Part shown: positions 33,467-35,578 of the stretch, piece by piece
Position numbering within the stretch: position 1 is the first letter of the stretch
Layout of the letters: the number at the start of each line of letters is the position of its first letter
Source of the DNA: Collinsella tanakaei
GTDB taxonomy: Bacteria; Actinomycetota; Coriobacteriia; Coriobacteriales; Coriobacteriaceae
Assembly: GCF_021531055.1 (NCBI RefSeq)
Contig: NZ_JADYTL010000011.1
Location: forward strand, 1-56,087
Direction of reading: 5' to 3'
DNA length: 56,087 nucleotides
Notes under the pieces: model-generated
Told to the model about the DNA's origin: nothing
What the model saw: only the letters and a program-made list of their open reading frames with translations
Databases searched by the model: none
Made by a program: the position numbers and the translations under genes

Positions 33467-34168
33467 ATGCTGTCCGTCTACAACATCAACGTGTGGTACG
33501 GCGCGATCCACGCCATCAAGAACGTCTCCTTCGAGGTGAACGATGGCGAGGTCGTCGCGCTGATCGGTGCGAACGGCGCCGGCAAGTCCACGACGCTCAA
33601 GACCCTGTCCGGCCTTCTGCGCTCGCGTTCCGGCTCGATCAAGTTCATGGACGAGGACATCATGCACATGTCCGCCGAGAAGATCGTCGAGCACGGTCTG
33701 GTGCATGTGCCCGAGGGCCGTCGCATCTTCCAGCAGATGACCGTCGAGGAGAACCTCGACATGGGTGCCTACACGCAGCCGCGCGACACCATCGCCGGCA
33801 ACCTCGAGCGCGTGTACACGCATTTCCCGCGCCTCGCGGAACGCCGTCGCCAGATCGCCGGCACGTTGTCGGGCGGCGAGCAGCAGATGCTCGCCATGGG
33901 CCGCGGCCTCATGGCCAACCCCAAGCTGCTGATGCTCGACGAGCCGTCGATGGGCCTGGCGCCCATCCTGGTGGAACAGATTTTCGAGATCATCCAGGCG
34001 CTGCACGAGGCCGGTACCACGATTTTGCTCGTCGAGCAGAACGCGCAGGCGGCGCTGTCGATCGCGACGCGCGCCTACGTGATGGAGACCGGTCACGTGA
34101 CGCTGTCGGGCACCGGCGAGGAGCTGCTGCACAACGACGACGTGCGTCGCGCCTACCTGGGTGGCTGA
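33467..34168 (+). CDS. livF: Branched-chain amino-acid ABC transporter, ATPase LivF
   Basis: 233 residues. Walker A GANGAGKSTT, RRIFQQMTVEENLDMGAY region, signature LSGGEQQMLAMGRGLM, Walker B LLMLDEPSMGLAP and H-loop LVEQNA are all intact. It is the smaller ATPase of the pair with LivG. ATG 33467 abuts the livG stop (TAAATG). A terminator follows at 34215, closing the operon. Confidence 0.94.
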   Translation: MLSVYNINVWYGAIHAIKNVSFEVNDGEVVALIGANGAGKSTTLKTLSGLLRSRSGSIKFMDEDIMHMSAEKIVEHGLVHVPEGRRIFQQMTVEENLDMGAYTQPRDTIAGNLERVYTHFPRLAERRRQIAGTLSGGEQQMLAMGRGLMANPKLLMLDEPSMGLAPILVEQIFEIIQALHEAGTTILLVEQNAQAALSIATRAYVMETGHVTLSGTGEELLHNDDVRRAYLGG

Positions 34169-34214: not shown

Positions 34215-34251
34215 AGCCCGTCGGTGCCCCGTGGCGCCGGCGGGCTTTTTG
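34215..34251 (+). terminator. Terminator of the liv operon
   Basis: AGCCCG-TCGGTGCC and GGCGCCG-GCGGGCT form a stem followed by a T-run, about 46 bp after the livF stop. Confidence 0.8.
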
Positions 34252-34320
34252 CGCGCAGGTGGGGGTCGACGCCGCGGGGCGCAGGGATCGTCGTGAGCGG
34301 CCGGGGCTCCTCGGCGGCGG

Positions 34321-34440
34321 TTGGAACACCCTACTGACAGGTGGAACTCCCTACTGACAGCAGAGACTCATCACTGACAGCGGAGACTCTGTACTGACAG
34401 CAGAGGCTCTGTACTGACAGCGGAGACTCTGTACTGACAA
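34321..34440. repeat. Tandem array of six 20-bp units (left block)
   Basis: Six directly adjacent 20-bp units, each ending in ACTGACAG (the last in ACTGACAA), for example CGGAGACTCTGTACTGACAG at 34381-34400. The consensus is nnGGAACTCnnTACTGACAG-like, with the last eight bases almost invariant. The block reads in the opposite sense to the right block at 34461-34620. Confidence 0.9.
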
Positions 34441-34460
34441 AATCGAGGGAAAATAGGCGA

Positions 34461-34620
34461 CTATTGTCAGTGGAGAGTTTTAACTGTCAGTAGTGAGTCT
34501 CACCTGTCAGTAGTGAGCCCCGGCTGTCAGTACAGAGTTTCGGCTGTCAGTAAGGAGTCCGGCTGGCGGTGGGGAGTTCCACCTGTCTGCGGGGAGCCAC
34601 AGCCGTCAGTGGCGAGTTCT
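34461..34620. repeat. Inverted tandem array of eight 20-bp units (right block)
   Basis: Eight 20-bp units of the reverse complement of the left consensus, with CTGTCAGT as the core in most copies (for example TAACTGTCAGTAGTGAGTCT at 34481-34500). The three last units are more degenerate (GGCGGT, CTGTCTGC, CCGTCAGT). The blocks are separated by exactly one 20-bp spacer rich in A (34441-34460). Core sites are therefore in step at 20-bp intervals throughout. Confidence 0.9.
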
Positions 34621-34662
34621 GCCCGACATCGGAATCCAGTCTGGCCCGACATCGGAATCCAG
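34621..34662. repeat. Two direct copies of a 19-bp sequence
   Basis: GCCCGACATCGGAATCCAG occurs at 34621-34639 and again at 34644-34662, immediately after the 20-bp array. No coding sequence overlaps it. Confidence 0.85.
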
Positions 34663-34756
34663 CTTGTCACGACGGTGCGATCTTTCCCTCCCTAACTCCG
34701 TCGTTCCGAAGCCGCGGCGGCGGGGTACACTGGTGTCGAGGGGATGGTGAGGTGCC

Positions 34757-34843
34757 ATGGGAGTCCCGTTCTGGTTGTTCGTGACCATCGCGTTGGCGAT
34801 CTGTTGGGTTGCCGACCAGACGCGCGACCATGATTCCCGCTGA
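34757..34843 (+). CDS. Putative 28-residue single-pass membrane microprotein
   Basis: ATG 34757 begins a 28-codon frame whose product starts MGVPFWLFVTIALAICW and ends in the charged tail ADQTRDHDSR. The hydrophobic stretch is about 17 residues, enough for one membrane helix with the tail facing the cytoplasm. A GAGGTG-like site lies 4-5 nt upstream. It sits between the 20-bp array and cutC. No family is recognised; the frame could be fortuitous. Confidence 0.4.
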   Translation: MGVPFWLFVTIALAICWVADQTRDHDSR

Positions 34844-34885: not shown

Positions 34886-35578
34886 GTGAGCGAGACGACG
34901 ATCCTGCGCGAGTTCTGCGCCGAGAACTTCACCGACGTGCCGGCTGCCATCAAAGCGGGGGCGCGTCGCATCGAGCTGTGCGACAACCTGGCCGTCGGCG
35001 GCACGACGCCGTCGCTCGGTGTGATCGAGCACACGGTCGCCTACGCCCACGAACACGGCGCACGCGTGATGACGATGATCCGGCCGCGCGGCGGCGACTT
35101 CGTGTACAGCGACGATGAGCTCGCCATGATGGAATCCGACGTGTTCTCCGCCTGCGAGGCCGAGACCGACGGCGTGGTGTTCGGCTGTCTCAAGGGATCC
35201 GAGAGCGACGGTTACGAGCTCGATCTCGATGCCTGCAAGCGGATCGTGGGCGCGGCGATCGCGGCGGCCGACGCGTTTTGTCTCGATCATATCGACATCA
35301 CGTTCCACATGGCGTTCGACGCGTTGCCCGCCGAGGCGCAGCTTCCCGCGATCGATACCCTGGCGGATCTGGGCGTCACTCGCATCCTCACGCACGGCGA
35401 TGTCGCCGGCACGCCCATCATAGATAACCTCCCGCGCCTGCGCGAACTCACCGAGTATGCAGGCGACCGTCTGATCATCCTGCCCGGTGCGGGCATCACG
35501 CACGCGAACGTGGCGGATGTCGTCGCGGCGATCGGGGCCCCCGAGGCACACGGCACCAAGATCGTCAAGCTCGCGTAG
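34886..35578 (+). CDS. cutC: Copper homeostasis protein CutC family
   Basis: 230 residues, the compact TIM-barrel length. LREFCAENFTDVPAAIKAGARRIELCDNL at the N-terminus (family signature ending AGGTTPS, here VGGTTPS) and VMTMIRPRGGDFVYSDDELAMM are unmistakable; RILTHGD and ILPGAGI follow near the C-terminus. CutC has been linked to copper handling, though its biochemical role is debated. GTG 34886 follows AAGGAGG. No copper exporter is adjacent. Confidence 0.92.
   Translation: MSETTILREFCAENFTDVPAAIKAGARRIELCDNLAVGGTTPSLGVIEHTVAYAHEHGARVMTMIRPRGGDFVYSDDELAMMESDVFSACEAETDGVVFGCLKGSESDGYELDLDACKRIVGAAIAAADAFCLDHIDITFHMAFDALPAEAQLPAIDTLADLGVTRILTHGDVAGTPIIDNLPRLRELTEYAGDRLIILPGAGITHANVADVVAAIGAPEAHGTKIVKLA

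Follow-up and report, generated by a model that had tools for sequence, protein, structure and literature searches.

Opposed tandem arrays of a 20-bp unit around a fixed-length centre in Collinsella tanakaei: a dispersed intergenic repeat family that may represent a miniature element

The window, by which we mean the whole 56,087-nucleotide stretch of Collinsella tanakaei DNA analysed here, contains an array of opposed 20-bp units in the gap between livF (ORF end at 34168) and cutC (ORF start at 34886), and we were able to confirm this array as six units reading one way, a 25-bp centre and eight units reading the other way. The product of cutC was recognised as CutC in a Pfam scan, and the name livF is assumed from an earlier, sequence-only reading of this DNA. 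The features of the gap are as follows:

34228..34254, plus strand: terminator-like stem (34228-34244) and T-run 3' of livF (consensus scan only)
34320..34439, minus strand: left arm, six 20-bp units, all five steps 20 bp
34420..34484, no strand: core of 65 bp, the centre plus the first unit of each arm
34440..34464, no strand: centre, 25 bp between TGACA and TGTCA, dyad symmetry weak
34465..34623, plus strand: right arm, eight units, of which five are intact, followed by a 19-bp step and three degenerate units

The six and eight opposed units between the two genes had been described in the sequence-only reading and are borne out by our unit reading and by the coordinates. Its proposal that all 15 blocks keep an exact 20-bp register stands for the left arm and for units one to five of the right arm. 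Beyond these, a step of 19 bp separates the fifth unit from the sixth, and the right arm, described there as eight regular units, degenerates over its last three. What was taken as an A-rich spacer of 20 bp is better described as TGACA-N25-TGTCA, with 25 bp between the two motifs and the arms lying in no common 20-bp frame. Read outward from the centre, the unit consensus is TGTCARTRSNGAGTYYC followed by three free bases. The 65-bp core is hairpin-capable and is the segment most similar among the dispersed copies described below. The terminator-like stem precedes the array and hence transcription of livF probably ends upstream of it; a similar stem and T-run can be seen by eye in alignments of the same place in two related genomes, G021 and G022. 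We scanned 396 kb for opposed arrays, made up of the window and, from eight relatives, 17 stretches of 20 kb each. Two matches fell within the window array and one in another species, using a threshold that would miss some weaker known arrays, including several from the genome G013, whilst a crude control of one block-shuffled copy per stretch gave none; the window array is thus not a product of chance. Directly after the right arm, at 34624-34673, a 23-bp repeat (CGACATCGGAATCCAG...) occurs in about two copies. Just upstream of cutC there is also a 28-codon ORF (34757-34843, plus strand; MGVPFWLFVTIALAICWVADQTRDHDSR), the peptide of which is by eye near-identical in G021 and G022 within differing surrounding DNA, and which possibly encodes a small membrane protein.

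The genome of the window (G000, 2.23 Mb) holds 15 such arrays, of which 14 have the window-type unit (13 found by similarity search and one by a tandem-unit pattern). The fifteenth (C8:312348) has a GC-rich unit and the left core CGACA; it was found by the centre pattern, and its centre length is fixed by that search. The TGACA-N25-TGTCA centre is present in 14/14 window-type arrays, all found by searches that did not use the centre. Matches to the tandem-unit pattern number 55 in G000 and three in G021, with none in the other 41 of the 43 genomes searched, and the reversed control of this pattern gave none in all 43. When an inner-core pattern was run against one genome per species for 84,980 species, a set from which records close to the window's own may be absent, Collinsella tanakaei ET30 and one further record (L080) were returned; the latter contains single units only and was dismissed as chance. 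A centre-pattern match in G017 was likewise attributed to chance, as it has two mismatches and no resemblance to the unit. No match was found in plasmids or phages, and none in viral contigs by the tandem pattern; two viral contigs that do match the centre pattern share one common stretch in an open-looking reading region with no tandem units, again consistent with chance. A phage or plasmid origin is rejected on these grounds.

As judged by a simple gene caller, the genes around the 14 window-type arrays are convergent at six, co-directional at seven and divergent at one, and 13 of the 14 arrays lie 3' of at least one gene. The neighbours were scanned in a survey that covered the immediate ones at all but six arrays (C8a, C8b, C10, C16, C9e and C9f), and they are unrelated: purine synthesis, an ATPase, an alanine symporter, a MarR regulator, YccF, a macro-domain protein, a molybdopterin enzyme, a glycosyl hydrolase, ribosomal L24, thiamine synthesis, DcuC, Ppx/GppA, an MFS transporter and CutC. 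No function common to these scanned neighbours was found. The gene for ribosomal L24 adjoins array C9d, that for EF-G lies about 2 kb from C9e, and the large ORFs beside C9f are taken by us to be rpoC and rpoB by size alone.

Walking outward from the 14 centres gave 166 units and 138 steps in arms of 2 to 11 units, and the step is exactly 20 bp in 132 of the 138; none of the six exceptions (19, 18 or 21 bp) comes before step five. The phasing suggested by the sequence-only reading is upheld in this form, as strict 20-bp spacing near the centre. Unit quality falls along the arms in the same direction: at 13 constrained positions, which we picked from the consensus, departures per unit are 0.18 and 0.04 in the first and second units and reach 0.9-2.0 from the sixth, values that understate the outer decay since the walk halts at poor units. 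At position 9 of the unit, 135 of 139 intact units have C or G. The centre consensus is dyad-symmetric, with AA, GG, CC and TT at mirrored places, and no covariation of base pairs was found within the centre.

For the core as a whole, 19 sequences were compared, and standard pairs occupy 69.4% of mirror cells, against 34-40% when slid. The covariation score of the core exceeds that of 499 of 500 shuffles, and such signal as is present lies at positions 7-10 of the first units. Pairs changed on both sides are not enriched (17, against 18.0 in shuffled sets), nor are cells with changes on both sides (53 against 48.8, with 130 of 500 shuffles as high) or further pair types (47 against 50.9). Within an array, opposite first units resemble each other (permutation p 0.03; p 0.002 for positions 8-10), and this likeness fades outward, with p 0.07 for second and third units and p 0.48 for fourth units (six arrays), a pattern that may reflect fold-back origin or conversion rather than selection. 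Native arms of the 14 arrays also fold better than swapped ones, both as DNA (p 0.001 when one unit is included and p 0.014 when two are) and as RNA (p 0.003 and 0.007). Given the likeness of the first units and the better folding of native arms, fold-back is favoured in the core, be it by selection or by origin.

Several copies share near-identical cores. The centres of C9b, C9c and C16 agree at 20-24 of 25 positions and those of C9e and C14 at 22 of 25, the latter in inverted orientation, when the best centre pair in 500 column-shuffled sets reaches 20 of 25. The 400-bp flanks of the 14 arrays have nothing in common except one REP. Among the copies with near-identical centres, the first units are alike at 15-18 of 20 positions (background 14.5) and the second units at 12-16 (background 14.7). 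The exception is the pair C9b/C9c, two arrays 3 kb apart in which units three to five of the right arm are also alike (16-17 of 20), and here copying or conversion may have extended beyond the core. Two further suspected pairs (C9f/C9g, and C10 with the C9a array of G021) were set aside, their first units being at background. Likeness of units within an arm amounts to 14.6 of 20 for adjacent and 14.1 for non-adjacent units, with 13.7 between arrays, which lends weak support to local growth.

Comparison with related genomes (G021, G022, G016, G008 and G013) covered 29 stretches at the places of 11 arrays, and in none of these were two adjacent window-type units found. Some stretches cover part of the gap only or lack a flanking gene (L151, L167, L168 and L146 span part of the gap or a single flank), L165 and L166 were excluded, and the C9e/f region is rearranged in the relatives. 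At three places, C9a, C9b and the window's own, relatives have arrays too. At C9a and C9b the arrays of G021 differ in unit number from those of G000; the right arm at C9b has five units in G000 against two in G021, followed by the same sequence, the left-hand neighbour genes differ between the two genomes, and the third step of the G021 array there is 18 bp. At the window's place, G021 and G022 have GC-rich units (approximately TGTCGCGGNGGGGTCTCGCA) around TGACA-N25-TGTCA, and the centre together with the first units is inverted between these two genomes. A fixed intergenic sequence with constant copy number, which the sequence-only reading had named as evidence against a transposon, is thus not what is seen between species: both presence and unit number vary. 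Unrelated flanks, near-identical cores and 29 array-free stretches in relatives together indicate that the element has probably spread in the G000 lineage, and parsimony, applied to these sequence comparisons, favours gain in that lineage over loss in the relatives. The earlier suggestion of a non-autonomous element gains weight from the same material, namely 15 copies, near-identical cores in some of them amid unrelated flanks, and no such array in the relatives where the places of 11 arrays were compared. A MITE would have terminal inverted repeats and a target-site duplication; by eye, neither sharp array ends nor a clear duplication were found at the compared places.

Other repeats were met at some of these places. 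The C14 array (L081 3020-3220) lies between two 34-bp direct copies of a GGGGACGTGTTC repeat, of which G021 has by eye a single copy at the same place; these were rejected as a target-site duplication, as they are REP copies that also occur in tandem elsewhere. At the C9d place, occupied in G000 by the opposed array, G021 and G022 (L139, L151) have tandem units of about 21 bp (CCGCGGCAAA...) that all run one way, and the gap equivalent to that of C16 in G013 (L152 640-760) contains a near-perfect 23-bp tandem repeat.

The same layout recurs with other units in other Collinsella. In G013, seven matches to an opposed pattern were found (control 1) with a 21-bp unit CGTTCCSGGGGC and a 30-bp centre; the pattern fixes this centre length, leaving the period and the further units free, and several of the array centres are strong palindromes. 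The same pattern gave 0-3 matches elsewhere with 0-2 in controls, and eight genomes with 1-3 matches were dropped as background. The scan for opposed arrays mentioned above, which presets no unit, yielded one array in the 340 kb from eight genomes (17 x 20 kb); it lies in G005, with units of about 20 bp containing GTGCWCCGAAG around a strong hairpin. This unit is also present in G045 and G054, both kept after reading of the matches; a match in G056 resembles a coding repeat and was left out. The arrays of G005 and G045 have hairpin centres, and at one locus with shared flanks in these two genomes one arm has by eye three units in G005 and five in G045.

Turning to known systems, BOX elements have a variable number of inner repeats and are not mirror-symmetric, and the centromere array parC of pSK41 consists of 20-bp direct repeats bound by ParR; no parR- or parM-like gene was found among the scanned array neighbours. 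Four Y1 transposase genes are present in G000 (L194-L197; C8:234.6k, C9:168.8k, C13:139.8k and C13:15.5k), which we take to be RAYT-like by their size. Neither the unit nor the centre pattern occurs at any of the four loci (about 1.2 kb on each side); each has a different palindrome nearby, and some of these palindromes also adjoin arrays. The motif GGGGACGTGTTC of one Y1 gene is also found beside arrays, at a distance of no more than 400 bp, namely at C9a, at C9c in four copies and at C14. In G005, a genome with arrays of its own, no Y1 match was obtained (E 0.001). Membership in a RAYT/REPIN system was rejected for G000 on the basis of these four loci and of G005, although the unit of the latter differs. 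No cognate transposase or binding protein was found for the arrays.

REPINs are, according to the available extract of PMC3116915, inverted REP pairs that form a hairpin, are moved by a RAYT and are extragenic and dispersed. The arrays resemble REPINs as portrayed there in being inverted pairs with a set spacer length (14/14 arrays), hairpin-capable, extragenic and dispersed in related copies, but differ in that each of their arms consists of 2 to 11 units in tandem and that no RAYT with the unit was found. BIMEs, including BIME-2, are presented in the accessible part of PMC2817692 as composite intergenic palindromic repeats of variable copy number, features that the arrays share going by that extract; their orientation alternates, however, whereas here it is uniform within each arm and the arms oppose once. 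The comparison with REPINs and BIMEs also draws on a portion of PMC3733652. Among the matches listed for open-licence PMC papers, titles and abstracts contain no description of such repeats in Collinsella, and the part of PMC8040213 at hand mentions Collinsella and REPs separately.

The sequence-only reading had also pointed to IS21, either as element ends or as a junction scar. This has a basis in the IS21 ends as they appear in an excerpt of PMC10122671, with several direct repeats per arm, spaced 23 bp, and a terminal CA, and in the available text of PMC11208146, which gives at least two repeats per end; to the extent of these extracts, the arrays are alike in having several direct repeats about two helical turns apart within an arm and a terminal CA. 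They differ from IS21 ends in their 20-bp period, opposite polarity and centre of 25 bp in 14/14 arrays, and no transposase lies nearby. G000 itself allows a comparison: its IstB matches comprise one strong copy (178 bits, contig C13) and four others of 19-27 bits, none within 12 kb of any array. The ends of the clear IS21-type copy have AACGGGCCG-like repeats 23 bp apart by eye, unrelated to the array unit, and no run of array units was found in the 7 kb fetched around it. With unrelated ends of another period and IstB at this distance, the arrays are rejected as an IS21 end, junction or scar, and this explanation, largely refuted, keeps the smallest probability of all those considered.

Among the remaining alternatives, the one that we take most seriously, if still as an improbable one, is that the arrays are passive sequence: replication would stall at a short inverted repeat, template switching would copy one arm onto the other and slippage would multiply the 20-bp units, with no protein and no dedicated mobility, dispersal being due to rare accidents. 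Such a process would accommodate arms of unlike unit subtype (as on the two sides of C11), decayed outer units, whole-unit changes between orthologues, the inversion of the centre between G021 and G022 and the matching of inner units within arrays. It has difficulty, however, in that conversion is unable to create arrays where none stood and that 14 arrays share one consensus (as with C/G at position 9) and one centre length. This constraint on particular bases, together with the exact 20-bp steps near the centre and a centre that is dyad-symmetric yet non-covarying, would be expected if the arrays were instead functional chromosome-organising or regulatory sites, at which a host protein nucleates at the dyad and polymerises outward, with copies being retained for their usefulness. 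The position of 13 of the 14 arrays 3' of a gene (simple gene caller) and the proximity of C9d to the ribosomal L24 gene and of C9e to that of EF-G also speak for such a role, but arrays are missing at compared places in G021, G022 and others, the unit sequence varies between species of one genus and the scanned neighbour genes share no function, and we rate this reading as unlikely, below the passive one. A transcribed structured RNA with a long hairpin appears very improbable: the RNA fold of the 300-bp array does have a z-score of -13.85, but opposed arms alone predict strong folding, the array lies beyond the terminator-like stem, and between 34100 and 34900 there is no Rfam match near its gathering score (two microRNA matches at 24-26 bits, against 93 and 130). 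The centre was also considered as a promoter and set aside, with two weak sites (0.1 in shuffles), the first hexamer of which, CTGACA, is the unit core itself.

The explanation that we prefer, with a probability that we place just short of even, is that the array is a non-autonomous, hairpin-cored miniature intergenic element, with arms that lengthen as units are duplicated and a putative protein that reads the units. In this proposal the first left unit, the fixed centre and the first right unit make up a core of about 65 bp that can fold back as a hairpin, and it is this core that most clearly recurs at new intergenic places. After arrival, the arms would gain and lose whole 20-bp units by tandem duplication and loss, and such turnover of whole units would leave the inner units near consensus and the outer units to decay. 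The units would serve as recognition sites for a putative protein acting in trans; their exact spacing near the centre, at about two turns of the helix, could keep bound protomers on one face of the DNA, and this phasing could let binding spread outward from the dyad. Dispersed copies with shared cores, absence at the sites of relatives, whole-unit differences, centre inversion and the constancy of the step are read from the compared sequences; what we infer is that the element is mobile, that it works in its hairpin form and that a protein acts on it in trans. Overall, the arrays are dispersed intergenic palindromic elements, a known kind, with a real chance that they form a new class.

A wider generalisation, which we hold more tentatively and consider the less probable side of the question, is that Collinsella contains an element class defined by its architecture: a hairpin or dyad core of fixed length and opposed arms with lineage-specific units (TGTCAGT, 20 bp; GTTCCSGGGGC, 21 bp; GTGCACCGAAG, about 20 bp). 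The spread and enlargement of such elements would be due to a fast-evolving protein that acts in trans and belongs neither to the RAYTs nor to the IS21 transposases.

For most short dispersed repeats of bacteria, the explanation lies in RAYT-REP pairs or in MITEs that belong to known insertion sequences. The layout described here is unusual and, in a single genus, is built from at least three different unit sequences; one lineage probably gained it, and G005, which has a unit of its own, has it with no detectable Y1 transposase. If the arrays are driven by a protein, that protein would be an unrecognised partner of bacterial repeats; if they are not, they would be a clear example from nature of amplification that is driven by a palindrome and keeps a strict period.
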